Shown here piece by piece: positions 5,266 through 56,100 of a stretch of 64,000 nt of DNA; positions within the stretch are counted from its first letter, which is position 1, and each line of letters opens with the position of its first letter. The translations under genes and the position numbers were made by a program. Below the pieces are notes generated by a model that saw nothing but the letters and a program-made list of their open reading frames with translations, had not been told where the DNA came from and made no database searches. This DNA is from Magnolia sinica (lineage: Eukaryota; Streptophyta; Magnoliopsida; Magnoliales; Magnoliaceae), in assembly GCF_029962835.1 (NCBI RefSeq), contig NC_080574.1, positions 28,494,001-28,558,000 on the forward strand, read 5' to 3'.

Positions 5266-7270
5266 TAAATTTAATATTGATGGAATAGATGTACAAATCC
5301 ATGCCTTAGATTAGTGATTTTAATCTTGATTTTGTATTTGTTATTTTTGGATGAACAGTGACGGTCAAGAAAAATCCTAAAAGAGAGGCAAATCAAGGGA
5401 GGAAATTGTTTCTGCTCGCTCACATGTGCACCAGTTCCCACAAGAACTTGTGATAACTTTTTGGATCAGGGTAAAAGTTGAGCCCGGTGGGTTTCACGAG
5501 GTGTTGCATCATGTGAACCATTCAGATTTTGGGTTTACATTACATGAGATGAGTTCTCAAAAAGTTCTCACTAGTCCTCATGAGAACCGGTGCGTAGGTG
5601 GGCATTTCACTGGTGTGCATGTGAGTTCGTGAGAAATTTTTGAGAACTTGTCTCATGTGATGTGAGCCCAAATTCTGAACGGTCCACGTGATGCAGCGCC
5701 CCATGAAACCTAAGGCCCAACTTTCACCCTGATCCAAAACTCTGGTGCACCCATGAGCATGACTATATGCATATATAGACACACACACAGACCAAATCAC
5801 AAACTACACCAAAGTTGCCGCTTTTTCGTGGGGATTTACCCATCACAGAGATGCACAGAGCAACAGAAAAAATTTCATATATCCCTTTTCCACTCAATCC
5901 AGAAACAAGAGCGGACATTATTCTGGTTCGTCTATATATATATATATAATTGGCTGATTTCTGTATAAACAGTTACTATCAAGAAAAATTCTCAAAAAAT
6001 GTATTTTTTAATATTAATTGTAAATGGTTGGAATAGATGTAGAATGATTAGATGTATAAATTCATGCCTTAGATTAGTAATTAAAATCCCATTTTGCTCT
6101 CTTTTTGTACTTTTTTATATATTTTTTCAACTGATTTTCGAATGAATAGCGACTATCAAGAAAATTCCTCTAAAATTGTTTTATTAATATTGATTGTAGA
6201 TGGTTGAAATTGATGTAGAATGTATAACTTCATGCTTTTGATTAGTCATTAAAATCCGATATTTTTTGTATATTTTATTTTTGTCCTATTTTCAGACGGA
6301 CAGTGATGGTCAAGAAAAAATCCCAAAAATGTTTTTTTTATTATTTAATATTGATTATTGTAAATGATTGGAATAGATGTATGATGAATAAACATACAAA
6401 TCTGTGCCTCAAATTAGTCATTAAAATCCCTATTCTTTCTTTTGTTTTCGACTAATTTTTGGATGAACAGTGACTGTCAAGAAAAATCCCCAAAAATGTC
6501 TTCTTCTTTTTTTTCTTTTTTTCTTTTTTAAAAAATATTGATTGCAGATGGTTGCAATAGATGTAAAAATCTTATTTTGTATTTTTCTATTTTCAAATGA
6601 ATAGCAACTGTCAAGAAAAATCCCCCAAAATGTTTTTTTTCTTTAATATTGATTGTGAATGGATGGAATAGATGTACAAATTCATGCCTTACATTAGTCA
6701 TTAAAATCTAATTTTGAACTTTTTATATATTTTATTTTTGACTTCTTTTTGGATTAATAGTAACTGTCAAGAAAAATCCCCCTTTTTTTGTTTATATTGA
6801 TTGTAAATGATTAGAATAGATATATAGGATAGAAGGCACACAAATTCATACCTTAGATTAGTCACTTTTTCCTTGATTTCTTTTTTTTTTTTCAACTGCT
6901 TTTCGGATGAACAATGACTGCCATGATTATTATTATTTTTTTAATGCTTGATATTGATTGTAAATGGTTGAAATAGATGTACAAAAACATGCCTTAAATT
7001 AACCATTAAAATCTCATTTTGTATTTTTTATATTCTTTAAATTTTCGATTGATTTTCAAACGAATAGTCTGTCAAGAAAAATCCAAATAAAAATATATAA
7101 AAAAAATATTGAGTGTAAATTATTGGAATAGATGTAGGATGGATAAATGTACAAATTCATGCCTTATATTAGTCATTTTATTTCCTTTCATTATATTATT
7201 TTTTGACTGATTTTCCGATGAATAGTGATTGTCAAGAAAGATCTCCAAAAATGTATTTTCAGTTGTATAA
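5266..7270 (+). repeat. Degenerate AT-rich tandem array, about 155-bp unit
   Basis: About ten diverged head-to-tail units. Each carries, in order, AATATTGATTGTAAATGG, AATAGATGTACAAATTCATG, a block related to CCTTAGATTAGTCATTAAAA, and a block related to GAATAGTGACTGTCAAGAAA followed by AATCCC. Unit starts are near 5268, 6010, 6186, 6347, 6534, 6644, 6793, 6950 and 7105, so the period ranges from about 110 to 190 bp, mainly through poly-T length changes. The gap between the first two units is filled by the foldback MITE at 5424-5752 and flanking sequence. No coding capacity. Confidence 0.8.
5424..5752. mobile_element. Foldback MITE, about 330 bp, inside the tandem array
   Basis: Near-complete palindrome with arms of about 140 bp. 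Left: GTGCACCAGTTCCC, GGATCAGGGTAAAAGTTG, GAGTTCTCAAAAAGTTCTCA. Right: the reverse complements, ending CTGGTGCAC at 5750. It interrupts the 155-bp array, so it is younger than the array. Ends are approximate and I could not settle a target-site duplication. Confidence 0.7.
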
Positions 7271-10862: not shown

Positions 10863-13800
10863 TCCTTTGTTTTCTTCTCCGATCTTCATGTGATGTGAGG
10901 GTGTTTTCCATTTGAATTGGAAGGAAGATCGTTGCGAAGCTTATCTTCATCAACGGAAGTTCAAGGCTTCCTTCCATCCCCACACTCTCATCTCTTTATC
11001 AACAATTGAGGTATTCCTGCAAGTTCTTTGTTTCTTCTTCCCCCTTTCTCCAAATCCATCAACAACCTTCATATCTTCATCTTTTATACATTACTTAACA
11101 AGCCGAACCCTATAAACCCAAAACCCAACCTACCTAGCCCACATGTGTGACTGTATGGCCACACGTGTGAACCCATAGAGTTGGTCGTATGGCCTCACCC
11201 TTGCTCCTTTAGCTTTCCATTGCCCATACAACAAAACCCTACATTCTCTTGTCCAAACCCTAACGCTAAACCTAGAAATCCCAAATCTTCTTATTTTCCC
11301 AAATTATCAAACCATAATTCTTCACAATCTTCAATTAAACCCAAATCCCTACATTCCATCCAAAACCCTAATTCCCTCATCCTAGTACCTAAACCCTTTA
11401 TCCCATTTACCCAATTTACCCCATTAACCATAATTCCAAGTTTTCCCCACTTTTCCTAAACCCTAATCTCACCCTAGGTAGTATTAGGCCTTCCTCTTTG
11501 AAATAGGCTTAACCCTATGTTATTTGGATGTTTTTACATCCATTAGATCTTATTTCCCCTTATTTTAATGGTCTTATAGGATGATGTTTGACAACCTAGG
11601 CTTGAATTATATGTGATCTCTTTTTGGAATCTTGGTATTTGCAATGACGATAGCAAGTTTTGTAATTTTTATTAATTAATTTAATTTTGTTGATTGATCT
11701 CTCACAATATTTGAGTTCATGCATTGGTCCTACATCAAAGTTGGCCAGTAGTGAGGAGAAAACACCCGGGTCTAAATAAAAAAAAACAAGCCAATAGCTT
11801 GAGCTCTCCATTAACATCCAAACAATTGAGTCTAGACACTCCTTTGTTTAGGGGTAGTTTGGCACCTTGGATTTGGGTGGTTTGAGGGGATTTGAGGGGA
11901 TTTCAAATCCCCTGGTATGTTTGGCACCATAAAGTAACCGGGGGTTTCAAATCCCCTCAAAGAAGGGGTTTGAAATCCACGGTGAAAGCTTGGATTACAT
12001 CTAAAATCCTTCCAAGAGTTGCATGTGTAACATGTGTGTCACTAGACTATTAATCTATTGGGCACATGGCCCACTAATGATATCCCAAAACAATTAGATT
12101 ATCAATTGCATATTTGCATCACTATAATTATTTTAATACGATGATCTGCGTCGTCCAAACATTGTCCATGTAAATCAATGGTTAAAATGGTTGGTTAGTC
12201 ACTCAAATGTGATCTTGTGCTTGTGGCCCATCTGAGACTTGGAATTTCATCATTTTCGGGCAAAGTATATATTTCAACGGGCTTATTACAACCATTGTGT
12301 CAAACATTACATACATACACTAATTAGAGATATTAAAGTTGATTTAGTAATTAAATTCAAACCCCTATAAATATACTATGCATAGCTACTTTTGGATTAC
12401 AGGGGATTCTGAATCCAAGCTGCCAAACACAACAAGAGGATTTCAAATCCAGGGGGTTCCAAATCCAAACTCCCAAACAAGCCCTTAGTGTTGTTGCTTC
12501 AAGTGAGATTTGCTTCAAACTAGATTAAAGACTCAAAAGTAAACTATCCATAATGGTGATGATGATAATAAAAGGACTCCAAAGATCACCAAGTTAACTT
12601 GATGCAGACTTGGGTTTATTAAAGGGATAACTCCTTTTCTTTAAACCCTAGAGAACTCCAATGAGTACTCACGAAAACGGAGAGAGAGAGAGAGAGAGAG
12701 AGGAAATTTTTGAAAATTAGACTATAGGAAATGCATTTCAAACTCAATAGCAGCCAGTAGTCACCTATGTACGAGTCAACTCAGACTCGGGTCATCAGAG
12801 TCCAAACCTAGTTTCAAGTTTTTAAACCTTAATTAAAATTTGATTAGCTTGAGACTATCAAGATACATCTACTACATAGCTTAGGTTAGACATCTTCTCT
12901 TCGTTCGGTCCGAATGAAAAAAAAAAAAAAACCATGAAAACAATCAGAGGCATGGAAACAAGTCACAGGCCAAACAAAGACCCCATGCCTGAGGTAGTTA
13001 AATCACAAATACCTCCATTGAAACTATGCTACTCACCGAACAGCTCGCTCTACCATGAGCAGGTTGAATAATACGAGCCTATGAGAAATGGAAACAACCA
13101 AATGGCCAATACAAATATCAAACCCTTACCTTATCTGTCGGGTACAAAGGGAAGTTCAAGCAGGGGCAGGGGATATCGAATCCATACCTTTAAAGACAAA
13201 AGGATATCAACACCAACCAAAAGATAGATAGACAAGATTAATCAATCACACTAGTAGGGGGCGGCAACTAAAGAGGTAGCAAGGGGAACCGCAATTGCAG
13301 GAAAAGGTTCAACCCTACTATAGGCGACATATCGCCAGGTAGCATAGGTCTTAAAGCGACAACCAAGTTAACCCGCTCTGCTGTCATCCACAACAATGTT
13401 TTAAATATCGACAATATCGGCCGTTATATCCCACAATATATCTTGTATCCCACCTGTGCAATACGAAACGCACAGATAGTGCTAATATATCCCACATGTT
13501 CGATCTAGTGAGCATTTTCAATTTCTTATCCCTTTTTTTGTTAAAATTATGTCAAATCAGTGTTAAATGGTTACAAATCAAGGAGTTGAGCTTTGATTTC
13601 GATATTCATTGGTTCTTCATGTTCTCCATGTTTTTTTTCAAAATTTTCCTTCAACTAGCTATCAATTGAGACTAATTTCTAAGTATTTAAGAGTATTTGA
13701 TGGAATGATCATTACATGCATTCTAATTTCAAATTTTGAGAGTAGGTGGTCCAATTTGGGAAAATTTCGAATTTTCTCCCAAATTGTTGCACTCCAAACA

Positions 13801-17809: not shown

Positions 17810-18211
17810 AATGCTCGACCCAACTTTTTTTTTTTTTGAAAGATAACTTATATTAAAAGATAGAAAAATACAAAAGAATGGAACTGCTGAGGAGGCAGCC
17901 CCTTAGGACAAAAGAAAAGAATGATCAACATTGGTCCCTTCCCTGTGGGACTCCCATTCGGCAATGAGACATTTAGCATGACAGGACACTAAGTGGGAGG
18001 GCTTCGCTTCATTCTGAAAGCATCTCTCGTTTCTTTCAATCCAAAGAGTCCACCAAATCGCCAAGATTCCAGTCCGCCAAATCCTGGATTTGAGTTTCCC
18101 TAATCTGACCCCATGCCAGGCTTTAAGAAGGGTGTCCACATCCTTAGGAAAACACCAGCTAATCTTGAAACAAGAAAGAAAGGCACACCAAACTGAATAC
18201 GCAAATGGACA

Positions 18212-18330
18212 GTGAATCAACAGATGGTTAACAGATTCTTCCGAGGACATACAGCATAAACAGACGTTGGGGAGGATCATTCCTTTTTTCCTAAGATTGT
18301 CCAGGGTCAGAATTCGATCGTTCCCAACCA
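18212..18330. repeat. 119-bp direct duplication, left copy
   Basis: LINE-derived sequence from GTGAATCAACAGATGG to TCGTTCCCAACCA. It is identical by eye, base for base, to 22383-22501. The two copies bracket the LTR block at 18331-22382 and belong to one site of the LINE, so one copy is extra. Confidence 0.9.
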
Positions 18331-21300
18331 TCGATCTGCCTCGATGACGACGTCCAGGAAGGGCCTCCTAGCTAGAAGTCAAGTTTTGGTTCAGAAAAGT
18401 GGCCCGATAGTCAAGAAAAGCCCACCATGGGATCTCATGATCGTGGCCCACTCGTCAAATTGGTTTTATATTTTAAGTTTTATCTATTGTTATTATTTAG
18501 AACATCGTGAACGCTTTAGATTTCCTTGTTTGGTTTTTATTTTAGTTTACTTCTGACGGGCATTGTGCAAGTTTTGGAGTATAGGGTTCTCCTATAAATA
18601 GCACCCCTTGTAGTTCTTTTCATTCATTGAAGTTAATAAAAAAGTTCTGCTTTATTTTTACTGCTCTCTTCGTGAGTTGTGGAAGAATTCAAAAGTGGGT
18701 GCGAAGCCCTCCCTTTTCGAAGGGCTAACTACCGTGGTGCGAAGCCACATCGATCCCAATTCACCCCCATCTTCCATCATCTTTTTTTTTCCATCTTCCC
18801 CCACCATCCATATGTCAAATTTGTCCTTTTGTTGCATCAGATTTCTTCATTGAAGCAGGTTTTCAGATTTCAGCCCGCAGGTGAGCTGAAACTTCGGCGG
18901 AGCACTACGCACAAACCGTACATCGGATCGAGCTGAAATTTGGAGGTTTTGGAGTCCATCCCTGGCCGACCAGGGCCAAGGTGGCCTTTTTTTGAATAGT
19001 GGGCCCCACACACATGCGGTCAGGATCACACGCACGTCTGTCTGGGCCATTGTTGCTATCCACACTCGGGATCATCTTTTGGCTCAGGTTTTTATCCTCT
19101 TTTATCCTCTCATAGCCGTTTTTCATGAATCCTAACCCTATATTACATGATCCCTAATTGATTTGCCCCTTTTTATCAACTTAGGGTTCCTTGAATTGAA
19201 ATTAGGGAATCCCTTATATTAGGGACTGATTTTTATGCATGAGTAGTTGATTTTATTTCCTTTTGACATCGTTTGGCTTATAATTTTATTGGTTCAGTCC
19301 TAACCTGTGTCGGCTTGGACCCGCATAGATTCCCCTTTAATTGAATGTTTGGATTTTCATGTGGGATGTGGAATTTGTGTGATTGTTTCTGAATTGGTGT
19401 GATCTAAGCCTGAAATCTTGCATATAATATTTAAATTCACGTCCTGCGTCAAATTTGGTATCAGAGCCTACGGTTCTTGTATGGGAATTCACCACATATT
19501 TAGGGTTTAGTTTGTTTGAGTCCTTCATGCATTCAGTCCATCATATATAGCTGAATTTTAGTAACAGTGTATAGTCTCCTTCATATAGAGTCTCGTAGGG
19601 TTATTTAGTTTTTAGACGCATATAGTTGTAATAGCAGGTCCTTACGTTGAGCAAGTCAGTGTATGCCCACACGTACAGGTCGCGGTTTCGGTTTGCCCCC
19701 CACACTAAATATGGAACAATTGCAAGAGTCACTAAACAAGATATCTCAGACGTTGGAGTCTATGATTAAGCGCTTGGAAATGGACCAATGCTTGAGCCAG
19801 CTTGATGTACGCATTACCCGACTAAGGACTATCGCTAGGACAAACCCCACCATTGGGATAGATGTCCAATCTCAAGCAGGTGGCCTGGAGGATAGACCAA
19901 TGAATAGAGTTGGTCAAGGAATCAATTATGGGTGTGCACCCGTGTACCCACCCCATGAGAGACATCAAGACCGCTATTTTGAGGGGTACAACATGTATGG
20001 CCTTGTGGCTGGAGAGAGTGCACCAGCGGCTAGTGTAGAGTTACCCACTGAGGCCATTCCGGTAATGGATGAGTTACGTGATATCTTTCCTGATGATCTA
20101 CCGGATGAGTCCCTTAGGAAGGATATAGAGCACACCAGAATATGGGACATCGTAATACCTACAACCGAGTTCACGTTGAATAAGTTTGTCGATAGGTCCA
20201 CAGGTCTAAGTCCTTGTGAAGTCGTTACTGATTATAAACCTAGAAAACTTATTAATCTTGTCCCTACGTCACTGTCCCATAGGCCGTCAGAGTCTGCAGA
20301 GTCTTTTGCGCATCACATTCATTCATGGCATCAAGAAATCAGGCAGAAGATCATGACTAATAATGAACATTGCACATTTTATACAGACCAGTATGAATGT
20401 TTCAAAGGATTCAATATTGGGGACTCTGTGATGGTCTGCATCAGGCCCGAGCGGTATCCTTCGAGGGTCGTTCGTAAGTTACACGCGTGTAGCGCTGGAC
20501 CCGTCAAAATTATAAAACGAAACGGTCTCAATGTGTATGAGATAGATCTTCCACTTTCCATGGGAATTAGTTTCACATCTGATGTGGAGGATTTAGTTAC
20601 TTTTCAGAGGACCACTGATACTTTGTCCGGCCCTTCGCCCACCCATCCTAATTCCTCATATTTATCCCTTGAACCATGGCCCCTTTCCAACCCATTTTCC
20701 CAACCTCTACCTCCCATATCTACTTTTCCTAACGTTTCTTCCCAGCCTCTACCTCTCATACCTACCCTTCTCGACCCATTTTTCCAGCCTCTACGTCCCA
20801 TACCTACCCGTCCCAACCCAATTTTCCAGCCTCTACCTTCCATATCTATCATTCCCAACCTATTTTTCCAGCCTCTACGTCCCATACCTACCCGTCCCAA
20901 CCCATGTTCCCGGCCTCTACCTCCCATACTTACCCATCCCGACCTATCTTCCCGACCTCTACCTCTCATACCTATCATTCCCGACTCATTTTCCCGACCT
21001 CTATCTCCCATACCTAACCTTCACACATCCAAAAGGAAATAGAGAATATCCAGGACCATGAGATAGTTTCAACGTCGGACGGCGGGTTTGAAGTACGTGG
21101 TTAAATGGAAGTTACGCCCGGCTTGAGCGACACGTGGCTCACGAGGAGGAGCTTGAGACTTGATCTCGACATCCTGAGCGGTTCGGGAGTTTTATTTCGC
21201 CAGTGGCGAAATCTTCGCAGTAGGGGAGAATTGATGGGGACATCACGCGCACACACGCCGCCCCCATGCACGTACGTACGTAGAAGGAGGACCCCACCAT

Positions 21301-22382
21301 TGATCTGGCTCGATGACGACGTCCAGGGAGGGCCTCCTAGCTATAAGTCAAGTTTTGGTTCAGAAAAGTGGCCCGATAGTCAAAAAAAGCCAACCATGGG
21401 ATCTCATGATCGTGACCCACTCGTCGGATTGATTTTATATTTTAGATTTTGCTTATTGTTATTATTTAGAACATCGTGAACACTTTAGATTTTCTTATTT
21501 GGTTTTTATTTTAGTTTACTTCATTGCCAAGTAATAGGTGTCGCACATAGTGTGAGTTTTTGGGTATAAGGTTTTTCCTATAAATAAGCACCCCTTGTAG
21601 TTCTTTTCATTCATTGAAGTTAATAAAAAATTCCTACTTTATTTTTCTTCTCTTTTCGTGAGTTGTGGAAGAATTCAAAAGTAGGTGCGAAGCCCTCCAT
21701 TTTCGAAGGGCTAACTACTATGGTGCGAAGCCACATCGATCCCAATTCACCCCTATTTTCCATCATCTTTTTTTCCATCTTCTCCCACCATCCGTGCTTC
21801 GAATTTATCCTTTTGTTGCATCAGATTTCTTCATTACAGTAGGCTTCCAGATTTCGTCCTGTAGGCGAACTGAAACTTCGGCGGAGCACCGCGCACAAAC
21901 CGTACATCGGATCGAGCTGATATTTGAAGTTTTGGAGTTCATCCCTGGCTGACCAGGGCCAAGGTGGCATTTTTCTTAATAGCGGGCCCCACACACATGC
22001 GGCCGGGATCACACGCACGTCCATCTGGGCCAATGTTGCTGTCCACACGCGGTATCATCTTTTGGCTCAGGTTTTTATCCTCCTTTATCCTCTCATAGCC
22101 ATTTTTCATGAATCCTAATCCTAGATTACATGATCCCTAATTGATTTGCCCCTTTTTATCACCTTAGGGTTCCTTGAATTGAAATTAGGGAATCCCTTAG
22201 ATTAGGGACTGATTTTTATGCATGAGTAGTTGATTTTATTTCCCTTTGACATCGTTTGATTTATAATTTTTATTGGTCCAGTCCTAGCCTGTGTCGGCTT
22301 GGACCCGCGTAGATTCCCCTTTTTAATTATATGTTTGGATTTTCATATGGGATGTGGAATTTGTGTGATTGTTTATGAATTG
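18331..22382 (+). mobile_element. Ty3/gypsy-related LTR block, fossil, internally reduced
   Basis: Direct LTR copies lie at 18331-19451 and 21232-22382, about 92% alike over the part I compared. TGGTATCAGAGCC at 19456-19468 is an initiator-tRNA-Met primer site, and a purine tract precedes 21232. Between them a frame at 19663-21042 holds a gag-like start, a piece resembling an integrase C-terminal region (GFNIGDSVMVCIRPERYP) and a proline-rich tandem-repeat tail; chromodomain-like sequence follows. The internal region is far shorter than an autonomous element's, so this is a non-autonomous, broken relic. The block neither begins nor ends at the LTR termini seen in the solo LTR at 29307-30518. 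Confidence 0.85.
20685..21025 (+). repeat. 42-bp minisatellite encoding a 14-residue proline-rich repeat
   Basis: About eight tandem units of 42 bp with the core CCTCTACCTCCCATACCTA. In the long frame they read as variations on FQPLRPIPTRPNPI. Because 42 is a multiple of three, all frames, including the reverse strand, stay open over the same stretch. It belongs to the LTR block. Confidence 0.85.
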
Positions 22383-22501
22383 GTGAATCAACAGATGGTT
22401 AACAGATTCTTCCGAGGACATACAGCATAAACAGACGTTGGGGAGGATCATTCCTTTTTTCCTAAGATTGTCCAGGGTCAGAATTCGATCGTTCCCAACC
22501 A
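22383..22501. repeat. 119-bp direct duplication, right copy
   Basis: Identical to 18212-18330. The LTR block reads GAATTGGTG into this copy, and LINE sequence continues unbroken after it (CCAACCAGCCAACC). Confidence 0.9.
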
Positions 22502-23909
22502 GCCAACCAAACACCTGGAGCTTTGGAGGGACAGCGTAATTCCAAAGGAAGTGGGGATGTTGAGAGGGGGCAACAGCATTGTTGGCCGATAGAATTGTGT
22601 AAAAAGACTTTACTGTGAAAACAGATGACTTGTCAGGTTTCCAGATGATGCTGTCCTTGCCGCCATGACTAAGAGACACTTCTTGAATGTAATGTAACAA
22701 TTCAACAAAGTGATCAGCTTCCCAGTCCTAAAGGTTCCTCCTACAGGGGATATTCCAAACAAGCTTGTCAGCTACAAGGGTATAGTTATCGGCTATGAAA
22801 TTGTTTTTCTTGCTCGCCACCCGGAAGATGGAAGGAAATTTATCCTTCAACGGCATGTCTCCTATCCATGTGTCTTGTCAGAACTGGATACAATCTCCCT
22901 TACCCACTTCAAAGCTGATCCATCGGGTGACCTCTTCTTTCATCCGACTAATACCTCTCCACATTGCGGATGCCGTATAAAGAGAGGAATCGATCGTCCA
23001 CCAGCCTCCAATCGAACTCCCATATTTTCCTTTAATGATAATATTTCAAAGTTTGTCCTTTTCATAACCAAGTCTCCAGATCCGTTTACCTAATAGGGCC
23101 TGATTCATCAAGTCGAGATCTTTAATACCAGCTCCACCCTCTTTAAAGGGTTTATAGACATTATTCCAATTCAACAGACTGAACTTCTTCCAATCTTCAT
23201 TGCCACTCCCAAAGAAAATTGCGCCGGAGCATGTCCATAGATTTAAGAACCGCGGCTGGGCAATGAAAGAGAGACATAAAATACTTGGGAAGATTAGACA
23301 AAGCGGCTTTAATTAGCGTTAGTCTCCCACCCATGGATAGGTAACGACGTTTCCATCCTGCTAAATGATTGCTGAATCTTTGTAAGACTTTTTCCCAATG
23401 TTGTTTTTTAGACTGCCCGACACATAAGGGGAGTCCCATGAAGACAGTTGGGAGGGATCCCACACCACACCCCATAAGATCAGCTAACACCTCCGTCTCT
23501 TGAAACTCCAGATTGACCCCAAATAGTTTGGATTTGGACAGATTCACCTTCAATCCTGCCACAGCTTCAAAACATCTAATCACAGTACGTAAATTCGCAA
23601 CTGATTCAGGAGTAGCTTCAGAGAAAATTAGAATATCATCTGCGAATTCGACGTGGGATATCGGAACTTGCACACCTTTCATATGGACTCCCCTAAAGAA
23701 GTTTTCCGACTGAGCTTGCAAGAGCCTAGCTGATAATGCTTCACCGATGAAGAGGAAGAGGGAGGGGGAAAGGGGGTCCCCTTGTCTAAGGCCGCGAGAA
23801 CTTTTAAAAAAGCCTTTCGGGGTTCCGTTTAAAATGACAGCGAAATGGGCAGAGTTGATACATTCCTCGATCCATTGTCTCTAACGGTCACCAATGCTCG
23901 ACCCAACTT

Positions 23910-29306: not shown

Positions 29307-30518
29307 TGATGGGGACATCACGTGCACACGTGCACTCACGCCGCCCCCCCTACGCACGTACGTACGTAGAAGGAGGACCCCACCATCGATCTGGCTCAAT
29401 GACGACGTCCAGGAAGGGCCTCCTAGCTAGAAGTTAAGTTTTGGTTCAGAAAAGTGGCCCGATAGTCAAGAAAAGCCCACTATGGGATCTCATGATCGTG
29501 ACCCACTCGTCGGATTGGTTTTATATTTTAAGTTTTGCTTATTGTTATTATTTAGAACATCGTGAACGCTTTAGATTTCCTTTTTTGGTTTTTATTTTAG
29601 TTTACTTCATCACCAAGTAATAGGTGTCGCACATGATGCGAGTTTTTGGGTATAGGGTTCTCCCTATAAATAGGCACCCCTTGTAGTTCTTTTCATTCAT
29701 TGAAGTTAATAAAAAATTCCTGTTTTATTTTTCTGCTCTCTTCGTGAGTTGTGGAAGAATTCAAAAGTAGGTGCGAAGCCCTCCCTTTTCAAAGGGCTAA
29801 CTATCGTGGTGCGAAGCCACATCGATCCCAATTCACCCCCATCTTTCATCATCTTTTTTTCCATCTTCCCCCACCATCCGTACTTCGAATTTGTCCTTTT
29901 GTTGCATCAGATTTCTTCATTACAGCAGGTTTCCAGATTTCGACCCGCAAGCGAGCTGAAACTTTAGCGGAGCAACACCGTACATCAGATCGAGCTGAGA
30001 TTTGGGGGTTTTGGAGTCCATCCCTGGCCAACCAGGGCCAAGGTGGCCTTTTTCTGAATAGTGGGCCCCAGACACGTGCGGCCGGGATCACACGCACATC
30101 CGTCTGGGCCATTATTGCTGTCCACACGCGGGATCATCTTTTAGCTCAAGTTTTTATCCTCTTTTATCCTGTCATAGCTGTTTTTCATGAATCCTAACCC
30201 TAGATTACATGATCCCTAATTGATTTGCCCATTTTTATCACATTAGGGTTCCTTGAATTGAAATTAGGGAATTCCTTGGATTAGGGACTAATTTTTATGC
30301 ATAAGTAGTTGATTTTATTTCCCTTTGACATTGTTTGGTTTATAATTTTTATTGGTCCAGTTCTAGCCTGTGTCGGCTTGGACTCGCATAGATTCCCCTT
30401 TTTAATTGAATGTTTGGATTTTCATGTGGGACGTGGAATTTGTGTGATTGTTTCTGAATTGGTAGGATCTAAGCTTGAAATCTTGCATATCATATTTAAT
30501 TTTCCATGTCCTGCATCA
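29307..30518 (+). mobile_element. Solo LTR, 1,212 bp, same family as the block at 18331
   Basis: Starts TGATGGGGACATCACGTG and ends CATGTCCTGCATCA. Flanks GCGAT and GCGGT form a 5-bp duplication with one mismatch. It contains CCTATAAATAGG (a TATA-type promoter) near 29664 and an AATAAA-like AT tract after it. A solo LTR is the usual residue of LTR-to-LTR recombination. It defines the family's true ends. Frames of up to 148 codons inside it are not genes. Confidence 0.9.
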
Positions 30519-38165: not shown

Positions 38166-38405
38166 CATAGGGAAGACTGCACAATCGCCCCCATTCAACG
38201 ATGAACGATCATCAAGTCACACGTTCATGATCGGATGATTCGCACGATTCTTGAGCTATGGTGATCCGTACATGGGCCTAGCTGATGAACTGTCATGATC
38301 TCCTGCTGACCCACTGAAATGTGCCAATAAAAAAAATACAAGGATAGGATCAAATAAATCTTCTTTCTTCCCCATAACGGTAATGCAGGGAAATCCGCTG
38401 ACGAA

Positions 38406-40202
38406 ATGCTTCGGTGGATAACGTACAGTAAGTTTCACCCTCCATCTGTTCGAAGAAATGTCCATACGGCTTATGCATTAAAAGCCATGGATACCATGGC
38501 CATTGAGGAAGAAATATACTCCCATCTCCTGCAAAGATGTGCTCAAACGTCCAACTTAGACTACGGCCAAGCAATCCATGCCAAGCTCATCAAAACATTT
38601 CTTCTTTCTTCCACATTCCTACACAACCACCTCCTCAACATGTACTGCAAATGCGGAGCCCTCGCCAAAGGCCACCAACTGTTCGAAGAAATGCCCGAGC
38701 GGAACGTTGTGTCTTGGTCTGCCATCATTGCGGGCTTCGTTCAACACAACCACCCTAAAGAAGCCATATCCATCTTCCGGCAAATGCAAAAGGAGGGCGT
38801 AGAACCCAATGAATTCACCCTTGTTAGTGCTCTCAACGCTTGCTCTCTCTTCGAGGATACGACTCAGGCATACCAAATATACGCGCTGGTCATTCGTTCT
38901 GGCTTTGAATCGAACGTGTTCTTGACGAACGCGTTCCTCACTGCTCTGACCCGGCATGGGAAACTGACGGAAGCTAAGGAATTATTCGAGAAATGTCGAG
39001 AGAAGGATATCGTTTCTTGGAATGCGATGATGGCGGGGTACCTGCAATTTTCTTACTCGGATGTCTGGGGCTTTTGGTGTAGGATGAATCGCGAGGGAGT
39101 GAGGCCTGATAAATTCACCTTCGCGAGTGTCCTCACGGGCTTAGCTGCTCTTTCGAGCATGAACAATGGCTTGCAAGTCCACGCTCAGCTCGTTAAGTAC
39201 GGGCATGGAGACGACATTTGCGTGGGGAACGCTTTAGTCGACATGTACTTAAAGAATAGGAGTTTGATCGGTGGTTCAAAAGCGTTTGACGAAATGCCAG
39301 AGAAAGATGTGGTTTCATGGACCCAGATGGCATCGGGATGCCTACTATGTGGGGAACCGTCACAAGCTCTCAAAATCATTGAACAGATGAAGCTGATTGG
39401 GGTTAAGCCCAATAAATTCACACTAGCAACCGCCCTAAATGCTTGTGCGAGCTTGGCTTCTATAGAGGAAGGAAAGAAAGCGCATAGTTTCAGGATCAAA
39501 CTAGGGAACAGCATGGATGCCTGCGTTGATAACGCGCTTCTTGATATGTATGCAAAATGCGGATGCATGGATGGCGCGTCGGGGGTTTTTCGGTCGATGA
39601 CCGATCGGTCCGTCATTACATGGACGACAATGATCATGGGGTTTGCACAGAACGGCCGTGCCAGTGATGCTTTGAGGATTTTCGATAAGATGAGGGTAGC
39701 GTCTGTGGAGCCGAATTACATCACATTCATCTGTGTTTTATATGCGTGTAGTCAAGGAGGGTTCGTTGAAGAAGGGTGGGAGTACTTCTCATCCATGGCC
39801 CGCGATCATAGCATCTCGCCAGGAGAAGATCACTATGCTTGTATGGTGGATCTCCTTGGCAAGGCAGGCCAGATTGCGGAAGCTGAGGCTCTGATACAGA
39901 GCATGCCTTTTCAACCCGGCGTGCTGGTGTGGCAAACGTTGCTTGGGGCCTGTCGGGTTCATGGGGACCTAGAGACCGGCAAGCGAGCCGCGGAGAATGC
40001 CCTCGCTCTGGACAAGCTCGATCCGTCGACTTACGTATTGTTATCGAACATGCATGCAGATTCTAATAATTGGGATGGTGTGAGGGAGTTGAGAAAACTG
40101 ATGGGGAATAGAGAAGTGAAGAAAATGCCTGGGTGTAGCTGGATCGAGGTAGCGGGCCATAGCATTCCGCTTCGATTGCATCATGGAGGATGCATAGAGT
40201 AG
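38406..40202 (+). CDS. Pentatricopeptide repeat protein, PLS class with E domain
   Basis: 598 residues, intronless, from the first in-frame ATG; a second candidate is M28. PPR proteins bind organelle RNA and act in editing, splicing or stability. Residues 1-28 are basic and non-acidic, as in mitochondrial or plastid presequences (MLRWITYSKFHPPSVRRNVH). PLS-type repeats run from about 35 to 505: typical landmarks are NVVSWSAIIAGF (100-111), DIVSWNAMMAGY (201-212), DVVSWTQMASG (301-311), GVKPNKFTLATALNACASL (332-350) and ITWTTMIMGFAQNGRASDAL (404-423). An E-type module follows, VWQTLLGACRVHGDLETGKR (508-527) to MPGCSWIEV (574-582). Family members usually continue with an E+ or DYW segment; here an unrelated 16-residue tail ends at TAG. 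Either a natural E-class end or a shortened gene. The specific orthologue is not assigned. Confidence 0.95.
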   Translation: MLRWITYSKFHPPSVRRNVHTAYALKAMDTMAIEEEIYSHLLQRCAQTSNLDYGQAIHAKLIKTFLLSSTFLHNHLLNMYCKCGALAKGHQLFEEMPERNVVSWSAIIAGFVQHNHPKEAISIFRQMQKEGVEPNEFTLVSALNACSLFEDTTQAYQIYALVIRSGFESNVFLTNAFLTALTRHGKLTEAKELFEKCREKDIVSWNAMMAGYLQFSYSDVWGFWCRMNREGVRPDKFTFASVLTGLAALSSMNNGLQVHAQLVKYGHGDDICVGNALVDMYLKNRSLIGGSKAFDEMPEKDVVSWTQMASGCLLCGEPSQALKIIEQMKLIGVKPNKFTLATALNACASLASIEEGKKAHSFRIKLGNSMDACVDNALLDMYAKCGCMDGASGVFRSMTDRSVITWTTMIMGFAQNGRASDALRIFDKMRVASVEPNYITFICVLYACSQGGFVEEGWEYFSSMARDHSISPGEDHYACMVDLLGKAGQIAEAEALIQSMPFQPGVLVWQTLLGACRVHGDLETGKRAAENALALDKLDPSTYVLLSNMHADSNNWDGVRELRKLMGNREVKKMPGCSWIEVAGHSIPLRLHHGGCIE

Positions 40203-43914: not shown

Positions 43915-44033
43915 TCGTCCGTACACTTGGCCTTCTCTGCATTCCGAGATCCAAAGGGCCACTTCCACCCACCCCAATCTCTCTCTAGCTACGGTTGACG
44001 GTCGGAAGGGATCCATTCCAGAGAAAAGAGAAG

Positions 44034-45110
44034 ATGTCATCCGACGGTAACGAACGGCCGGCAGTGGCCCCCACCGCTCCGAAACCCTACTTCTGCTATC
44101 AGTGCGACCGTACCGTCTCCATCTTCCTCCCTTCTCCTTCCTCCGACCTTAGCTGCCCCATCTGCCATGGCGGCTTTCTCGAAGAATCCCAATACCCTCC
44201 AGAGCCTAACCCTAATCCCTTCTTCTCCTCCGACGATTCTCTGTCCCCCTTCGGATTGCCCCTATTCTTATCCGCCTCCTCCCGAGGCGGCTTCGGTCTC
44301 CCTCCCGATCTCGCCTCCCTCCTCAATCCCACCGTCATCCACCGTCGATCATCGTCCGTGGGCCCCACCGACCCCGACGTCTTCAACCCCTTGCTCTTCC
44401 TCCAGAACCACCTCCAAACCCTCATGGCCGATGGTGCCAACATCCAGTTCGTGATTGACGGCGCCCCCTCCAACGCCTCCCTCTCCTCCAACCTCGGTGA
44501 CTACTTCATTGGGCCTGGCCTCGAGCAGCTCATCCAGCAGCTCGCTGATAACGATCCCAACCGCTATGGCACCCCACCTGCCTCGAAGTCTGCTATCGAG
44601 ACCCTCCCTGACATCAAGATCTCTGCCGAGCTGCTCGAGTCGGATTCCGCGCAGTGCGCTGTCTGCATGGACATGTTCGAGCTTGGGTTGGTCGCAAAGC
44701 AGATGCCGTGCAAGCATATCTTCCACCCTGATTGCATCCTCCCATGGCTCGCGCTGCACAATTCATGCCCCGTCTGCCGCTATGAGCTGCCGACGGATGA
44801 TCTGGATTATGAGCAGCGGACGAGGGGAATGCCACTCCCGGAGAATCTGACGAGTGGGAATGTGGCCACGGATTCGGGCAGCACCGGTGAGGGATCAGAA
44901 CAGGGGGATTCACAGAGGACGGTTGAGCGGAGGTTTAGGATCTCGCTGCCCTGGCCATTTAGGGCTTCTGGTTCGCCTGCAGAGACAAGCAGCACCAGTG
45001 TTGGCAGTGGCAATAATGCTAATGTTAACGAAGGGGAGACGGGTTCAAACTCTCTGGATCGAGGGAATCAGGATTTAGGCTCTGAAACCCGGCAAGAAGA
45101 TTTGGATTGA
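44034..45110 (+). CDS. RING-H2 E3 ubiquitin ligase (zinc-ribbon plus RING, RING1/CRT1-like)
   Basis: 358 residues, intronless. The ATG at 44034 is the first in frame; the frame is open back to 43995, but only through a TTG. An N-terminal zinc ribbon has C21-x2-C24 (YFCYQCDRTV) and C41-x2-C44 (CPICHGGF). The RING-H2 domain spans 208-248 as C-x2-C-x14-C-x-H-x2-H-x2-C-x10-C-x2-C (CAVCMDMFELG, CKHIFHPDC, NSCPVCRYEL). Between them lies the RYGTPPASKSAIETLP segment typical of this plant subfamily, and the tail is Ser/Gly/Glu-rich. No membrane segment, so it is probably a soluble ligase passing ubiquitin from an E2. All eight metal ligands are present and the length is normal, so it looks functional. 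The upstream region has a heat shock element and a foldback MITE. Confidence 0.95.
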   Translation: MSSDGNERPAVAPTAPKPYFCYQCDRTVSIFLPSPSSDLSCPICHGGFLEESQYPPEPNPNPFFSSDDSLSPFGLPLFLSASSRGGFGLPPDLASLLNPTVIHRRSSSVGPTDPDVFNPLLFLQNHLQTLMADGANIQFVIDGAPSNASLSSNLGDYFIGPGLEQLIQQLADNDPNRYGTPPASKSAIETLPDIKISAELLESDSAQCAVCMDMFELGLVAKQMPCKHIFHPDCILPWLALHNSCPVCRYELPTDDLDYEQRTRGMPLPENLTSGNVATDSGSTGEGSEQGDSQRTVERRFRISLPWPFRASGSPAETSSTSVGSGNNANVNEGETGSNSLDRGNQDLGSETRQEDLD

Positions 45111-54512: not shown

Positions 54513-55264
54513 AATGCTCCTTACACATAAAGTGTATTCTCAGAAGACTATGCCCCCTATGTTTAAGATGATTAGGCGTGATAATTTTGTCAGTCACAAC
54601 TGTCCAAGTGAGCACCTCAACTCTTGCCGGAATCAATAAGCTCCACACGTAAACACAAGGAGGCAGATTTGGAAGAGAACTGCCCAATTGAGGGTGCATG
54701 AAAGCCTATCACTGTCCCGTTTGTTTTCCTGTTGTTGTTTTTCTCTTCTTTGCAATTAATCAACTTTCTTTTTTGCAATTAATTTTGAGATGCCGTTTAA
54801 AGAAAAAAGCCCGGCATTGTCCTCTGTCTGAACTTGGTCTGGTATACAACTTCCTCATTGTTGAGGTTCCTTTGAAAATTTATATTTCATACCAACTTTC
54901 TTCCCAACTCTTTCACAACATTTTTAGAAGACACTTTCTCACCATACATGATAGATTTTTGGGAATTTCATCTCAAGACTTCCGTTTTCTCATCCAAATG
55001 TTGTCCCAAAATTCCACCTATCATCTTTCCCCTCACAAAATTTTACACGTCATATCTTTTCTTTAACCACATGTATTGCTCTTTGTGGATGTTTCTCCAA
55101 ACATCCAATCCCCTGCCAACAGTGATGCCTCCCTTGACCTTCTAACTTCCTTCTATTTAATTTAAGTGTTGCTTCCTTTGTATGCCCTTTTCGCACCAAT
55201 GGAAATCCCTTTGGTTTTCACAAGCCTTTTCGCCTTTGAAAAATGATTCAGATTACACCAGGAG

Positions 55265-55382
55265 TAAGGTTGGCAATGGGCCGGACCTGGGCCCAGTAAT
55301 ATCAAAATTTCAACAGTAGCGGCCTGAAAGCCCAGCCCACTGGACCAAATATAGGCCCAGGCCAGGCCTATTGCCAAGACTA
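55265..55382. mobile_element. hAT MITE, 118 bp, first copy
   Basis: Starts TAAGGTTGGCAATGGGCC and ends GGCCTATTGCCAAGACTA, inverted repeats. Flanked by ACCAGGAG on both sides (55257-55264 and 55383-55390), a perfect 8-bp duplication. Confidence 0.85.
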
Positions 55383-55675
55383 ACCAGGAGATCTGAGAAA
55401 GCAGCTTGAGGCCTAATCCCTTCACAAAATTTAACACATGTCAAATCTTTTCTTTTACTGCATGTATCGCACTTTGCAGATGTTTCTCCAAACATCCAAT
55501 CCCCTGCCAACAGTGATGCCTCCCTTGACTTTCTAACTTCCTTCTATTTAATTTAAGTGTTGCTTCCTTTTTATGCCCTCCTTGCACCAATGGAAATCCC
55601 TTTGGTTTTCACAAGCCTTTTCACCTTTGAAAAATGATTCAGATTGCACCAGGAGTGAGGCTGGCAATGGGCTAG

Positions 55676-55774
55676 ACCTGGGCCCTGTAAAATCAAAATT
55701 TTCAACAGGGCCGGCCCAAAAGCCCAGCCCACTGGTCCAAATGTAGGCCCAGGCCAGGCCTATTGCCAGGACTA
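55676..55774. mobile_element. hAT MITE, second copy by segmental duplication
   Basis: Same element and the same ACCAGGAG flanks (55668-55675 and 55775-55782) as the copy at 55265. Its presence here comes from the 391-bp duplication, not from a second insertion. Confidence 0.85.
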
Positions 55775-56100
55775 ACCAGGAGATCTGAGAAAGCAGCTCG
55801 AGTATTATCTGTACACAGGCAGCTTCTTTTCCAAAGTTATTTTCTTTTCAAAACTTTCAACAAACGAATTCCATTTTGATTCTGCATTAGGATTGGCAAC
55901 CGACAGGACCCTGAAATAAGTCATTGGAAGATTTTTTGTTTTGCATCCTAAACTACCTGGCACGGAAGCAAGCCATGCATCCTCGATTTTTATTCCCTCC
56001 ATCTTGCTCTTTAAGAGGTTTATCCTAAGATCCAAGATCACTTAAAAACATCTTAAAGTATAATTAAGAGTTTGCACTTGATCTTTTGATTTGCTGAGCC

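Follow-up and report, generated by a model that had tools for sequence, protein, structure and literature searches.

Integration of a Ty3-type LTR retrotransposon inserts complete element termini and duplicates about 5 bp of the target. A T-DNA insertion accompanied by a much larger, 158-bp target duplication was reportedly described by Gheysen in 1987. The systems closest to the structure considered here are, in the main, products of double-strand break (DSB) repair. In plants, patch-mediated DSB-repair insertions (Vaughn and Bennetzen 2014, as represented in papers citing it; extended in PMC7971508) carry site duplications that are mostly shorter than about 125 bp and are ascribed to adjacent nicks. 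The available part of PMC7971508, which deals with rice, gives tandem duplications attributed to the repair of such nicks as the commonest source of insertions, with a share of 70% of events at the start that declines above 125 bp and falls to 5% by 200 bp; an earlier rice set comprises insertions of 10-1000 bp, including short duplications from ectopic donors (PMC7407515, available part). A related process is documented in mouse and human cells nicked by Cas9 nickases: in the portion of PMC8355091 at hand, 3' overhangs of 43-49 bp are filled in with the participation of Pol alpha-primase before joining, which thereby duplicates the overhang in tandem and depends on Ku80 but not on polymerase theta. 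Schiml et al. 2016 is cited alongside these fill-in duplications in the accessible text. Retrotransposon DNA is also known to repair breaks, namely Cas9 breaks in mouse zygotes (PMC4516963), and in primates captured DNA interrupts repeat elements with 2-9 nt of microhomology at the joints, target duplications of 4-21 nt and 39 of 68 donors lying within 5 kb (PMC2671141, in part).

Here we present an analysis of a stretch of 64,000 nucleotides of Magnolia sinica DNA (hereinafter the window), in which an LTR block lies within a LINE between two copies of a 119-bp target sequence. The material inserted appears to come from a Ty3-type element, as it would in ordinary integration, but the block has no terminal LTR edges and the duplication is 119 bp long. 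In the length of the duplicated site it is akin to the patch-mediated insertions of plants; in contrast to these, the copies are not in tandem but separated by a 4-kb ectopic piece, where the rice set of PMC7407515, as far as its available part goes, spans 10-1000 bp. With the nickase products (PMC8355091, in part) it would share the filling of both overhangs followed by joining, whereas those products are tandem copies and here a large insert intervenes. The proposed capture of retrotransposon DNA recalls the zygote study, although the portion of PMC4516963 covered mentions no 119-bp target duplication; the interruption of a repeat element with short joint microhomology recalls the primate cases, from which the locus differs in the length of its duplication (PMC2671141, in part). 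In the literature within reach, this exact structure did not turn up, and we claim no priority for it.

Host LINE and Target Duplication

The host of the insertion is a 5'-truncated LINE on the minus strand (17827..23892), carrying RVT_1 and zf-RVT domains and an oligo-A tail that appears on the plus strand as 13 consecutive T (17825-17837). It is flanked by its own target duplication, 17 bp long and without mismatch, with one copy at 17810..17826 on its 3' side, whose final two T possibly belong to the tail, and an identical one at 23893..23909 on its 5' side. This duplication and the T run mark the ends of the LINE, which is therefore truncated at its 5' end and measures 1,895 bp once the block and one 119-bp copy are subtracted. 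That a LINE surrounds the block, as a preliminary description had proposed, is confirmed by the Pfam matches on the minus strand: RVT_1 lies in 23200-23880, and zf-RVT is split by the block into a left piece covering its positions 39-85 and a right piece covering 1-77. Since the block sits inside the LINE, it is the younger of the two.

The left copy of the target duplication (18212..18330), in the zf-RVT coding sequence of the minus strand, and the right copy (22383..22501) are identical at 119 of 119 positions, exactly as first described, and the match stops abruptly at both sides of each. A survey of exact direct repeats in the window (at least 30 bp long and spaced by at least 300 bp) returned 44 pairs in all; among the best 25 of these 44, the 119-bp pair is the longest, and the runner-up is a 51-bp repeat within a tandem duplication of ~390 bp. 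A chance origin of the 119-bp repeat is excluded.

When the LINE flanks are fused through a single 119-bp copy, the frame stays open for 217 codons up to its stop at 17903-17905, and zf-RVT is covered in full (Pfam, 1-85 of 85, 1.4e-22). The restoration of both the frame and the domain by a one-copy join indicates that the ancestral site had one copy; the empty site with a single 119-bp copy that had been predicted is thus borne out in silico. Upstream of the 217-codon piece the LINE frame is not intact, being interrupted by three stops and one frame change.

The length of the duplication is itself informative: 119 bp is far outside the roughly 5 bp produced by integrase, or the 4-6 bp of canonical LTR-retrotransposon insertions more generally, and inside the size range of nick repair, for which patch-mediated DSB-repair duplications run from tens of bp to about 125 bp.

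Several other features of the window are recorded here for completeness. Two open frames on the plus strand are probable host genes, one of 614 codons with PPR repeats and an E motif (38358-40202) and one of 373 codons with a RING finger and a zinc ribbon (43989-45110); together with the LINE and the Ty3-like LTRs they give the window the appearance of nuclear DNA of a plant. On the minus strand, 53643-54136 matches part of a large-subunit rRNA gene of bacterial type (Rfam RF02541, 152 bits), probably plastid DNA that entered the nucleus long ago. Two tandem copies of about 390 bp, with 91% identity, occupy 55028-55802, and a diverged repeat array, about 65-70% alike at several overlapping offsets, occupies 5935-7259. 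The tRNA-SeC called by ARAGORN at 11865-11964 on the plus strand is probably a chance match in plant DNA.

The LTR Block

The block spans 4,052 bp of the plus strand (18331..22382) and belongs to a Ty3-like LTR element of which its interior, 1,780 bp long, is a deletion derivative. The left LTR (18331..19451) retains its inner end, ...TCA, and has lost 68 bp at its start, or 64 bp if the bases ACCA at the joint are assigned to the LTR; the right LTR (21232..22382) retains its 5' TG and has lost 52 bp at its end, or 55 bp if the bases GTG at the joint are assigned to the LINE. Both inner LTR ends are accordingly present and both outer ends gone, so that neither edge has the complete terminus of a canonical LTR insertion, in agreement with the earlier claim that the edges lie off the LTR termini. 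The reference for these losses is a solo LTR of the same family at 29307..30518 on the plus strand, already proposed as the comparison and measuring 1,212 bp from its initial TG to its final CA. Its full ends and its 5-bp flanks (GCGAT/GCGGT, matching at 4 of 5 positions) display the ordinary insertion mode of this family.

Within the block, a primer-binding-site-like stretch, TGGTATCAGAGCC, begins 4 bp past the end of the left LTR (19456..19468) and is presumably the initiator-Met tRNA primer motif, while GTAGGGGAGAAT (21220..21231), directly before the right LTR, we take to be the polypurine-tract motif. Between them, also on the plus strand, lies an open frame of 459 codons and a stop (19663..21042; 1,380 bp). 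A Pfam search of two pieces of this frame, covering 19663-20661, gave a sole match above the cut-off, SH3_Tf2-1 (2.7e-09), in the second piece; the first piece matched no family, neither RT nor gag was matched in either, and a match to RHH_ERCC6L2 (0.0026) falls below its cut-off. Further downstream, about 8 copies of a 42-bp tandem repeat (20681..21022) run in frame and encode a proline-rich tail. As expected for plant DNA, there were no matches to the block among plasmids (megablast), to an exact 32-bp LTR pattern among viral contigs or to an exact 30-bp LTR pattern among prokaryote genomes.

Relative Ages of the LTRs and the Duplicates

The two LTRs differ at 91 of 1,062 aligned sites (8.6%; K2P 0.092), with 10 gap events, which is close to the divergence of about 8% first given. 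Set against the 0 of 119 differences between the duplicates, this contrast is significant (Fisher p = 4.2e-5), and the 95% upper bound on the divergence of the duplicates is 2.5%. Among 944 overlapping windows of 119 columns along the LTR pair, the minimum is 2 differences and the median 11; with gaps removed, the longest identical run is 54 columns. Removal of CpG-like contexts weakens the contrast, which nevertheless stands (P = 0.006; 78 sites).

The changes themselves are of a kind expected from ageing in methylated chromatin, where an excess of C:G to T:A substitutions accumulates. Over 1,054 three-way sites the left LTR has 38 private changes, the right LTR 47 and the solo LTR 33, of which 21, 30 and 24, respectively, are C:G to T:A. 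The divergence of the LTRs beside identical duplicates, together with this bias, suggests that the LTR pair was already old at capture; most likely it had aged in a chromosome beforehand. Homogenization of the 119-bp copies by gene conversion was considered as a source of their identity and set aside, since the 1-kb LTRs between them should be the likelier targets of conversion and are nevertheless 8.6% apart.

Two observations run counter to an aged LTR pair, and with it to the capture of an old fragment. One is that both block edges lie close to the element ends, as considered below; the other is that the 1,380-bp ORF of the element is still open despite the divergence of its LTRs, while the upstream frame of the host LINE has three stops and a frame change. 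With neutral decay set to half the divergence of the LTRs, the frame would stay open with a probability of 0.22 if substitutions alone are counted and of 0.003 with the indel rates of the LTRs.

The Joints and the Probable Mechanism of Insertion

At the left joint, the last 4 bp of the left copy, ACCA (18327-18330), are common to the LINE and the LTR, a match read from the right and solo LTRs because the block itself has lost its bases at this place. At the right joint, the right copy opens with GTG, which the LINE has in common with the left LTR of the block; in the solo LTR this point is GTA, and just GT is shared with the LINE. Both matches noted in the preliminary description are thus real, the second in full only against the left LTR. 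There is no filler at either joint. Among 200,000 random pairs of LINE and solo-LTR positions, at least 3 bp are shared in 5.6% and at least 4 bp in 1.9%, giving a chance of about 0.0017 for a microhomology of at least 4 bp at one joint and at least 3 bp at the other. Patch-repair joints are recognized by the absence of transposon termini and by microhomology or filler; here the outer LTR ends are missing and ACCA and GTG stand at the joints.

Briefly, we consider the following course of events the probable one: a staggered break in the LINE was filled in, and a fragment of an old LTR element was joined into it via microhomology. A pair of nicks, one on each strand and about 119 bp from each other, would have produced a double-strand break with long complementary overhangs; fill-in of both overhangs would have left the same 119 bp on each end; and a 4-kb piece of an old chromosomal LTR element would then have been joined between these ends, using the 4-bp and 3-bp microhomologies. 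This course, in outline the one first proposed for the locus, fits the size and the perfect identity of the duplicated copies, the loss of the outer LTR ends, the age of the LTRs and the short matches at the joints. On the other side, the 4-kb block exceeds the 10-1000-bp insertions found in rice (PMC7407515, in part), both of its edges lie less than 70 bp from the element ends, and the independence from polymerase theta given in the accessible part of PMC8355091 makes that system a poorer fit with microhomology at both joints.

The joints bear also on a second possibility, decidedly less probable, namely microhomology-mediated template switching (MMBIR/FoSTeS or SDSA-type copying). Copying would have left the LINE at ACCA, run through 4 kb of an old LTR element at another locus and then resumed in the LINE at GTG, 119 bp upstream, whereby these 119 bp were copied twice. 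This path would account for the duplication, both microhomologies, the absence of filler and an intact old donor, and it makes a free fragment unnecessary; nothing in it, however, forces a return exactly 119 bp behind the exit, a length that fits the published range of nick repair. Template switching and fill-in yield the same product, and no junction scar separates them.

The same short joints speak against an artefact of assembly or library preparation, in which both joints would be chimeric and the LINE really uninterrupted. Assemblies do fail at perfect repeats and at repeated elements, but the 4 and 3 bp shared at the joints are too short for an overlap misjoin by the assembler, the window has zero N runs, and two independent chimeras would be required; we therefore regard such an artefact as unlikely.

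The position of the block edges raises the question of what form of DNA entered the break. A random 4,052-bp fragment overlapping the 4,172-bp element would lie wholly inside it with a chance of about 1.5%. The near-symmetric trimming of the outer LTRs instead leads to a variant of the fill-in course, improbable on the whole, in which the captured piece was free DNA of the whole element with eroded ends, an aged element having been released or copied as a unit into a patch-repair break; such a route, independent of integrase, would let old elements that are dead for retrotransposition keep moving. That it was extrachromosomal DNA of the element, such as linear cDNA eroded at its ends and inserted by an errant integrase or by end joining at a break, we hold to be quite improbable. 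The nearly equal losses at the two outer ends (about 65 and 54 bp), the lack of anything beyond the element (which a random piece would give in 1.5% of cases) and the open ORF would all be in keeping with it. Fresh cDNA, however, has identical LTRs, whereas these are 8.6% apart, with ageing-type changes along their whole length, while the duplicates are identical.

A two-step history, beginning with the capture of a solo-LTR fragment into which a one-LTR circle from a younger element later recombined, would yield intact inner and truncated outer LTR ends, LTRs that differ and an open ORF. It predicts few private changes before the switch point in one LTR and after it in the other, whereas the private changes prove to be evenly spread (columns <=600/>600: left 20/18, right 24/23), and with this the scenario was rejected as very unlikely. 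Insertion of LTR-element RNA by the LINE machinery (TPRT) is scarcely credible: LINE insertions can produce long duplications, but no poly(A) was found on reading either block edge, the edges (GACA/GTGA and ACCA/GCCA) are not rich in T/A, the block exceeds the length of the transcript expected from the R-to-R layout of LTR elements, and the host LINE's own duplication is 17 bp. An ordinary old insertion with later loss of its ends was also discarded, for separate events would be required at both ends.

Conclusions

In conclusion, the insertion is most likely a repair accident of a known kind, and it looks like a clean instance of an almost complete LTR element moving without the help of integrase. 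The consequence for the reading of plant genomes concerns dating: the divergence of the LTRs (8.6%) would date the donor, while the duplicates put the event itself below about 2.5%, and an annotation pipeline that takes the age of insertions from their LTR divergence would go astray at such a site. If the fill-in of a staggered break with capture of an old fragment is the true course of events, patch repair in plants accepts an insert of 4 kb.
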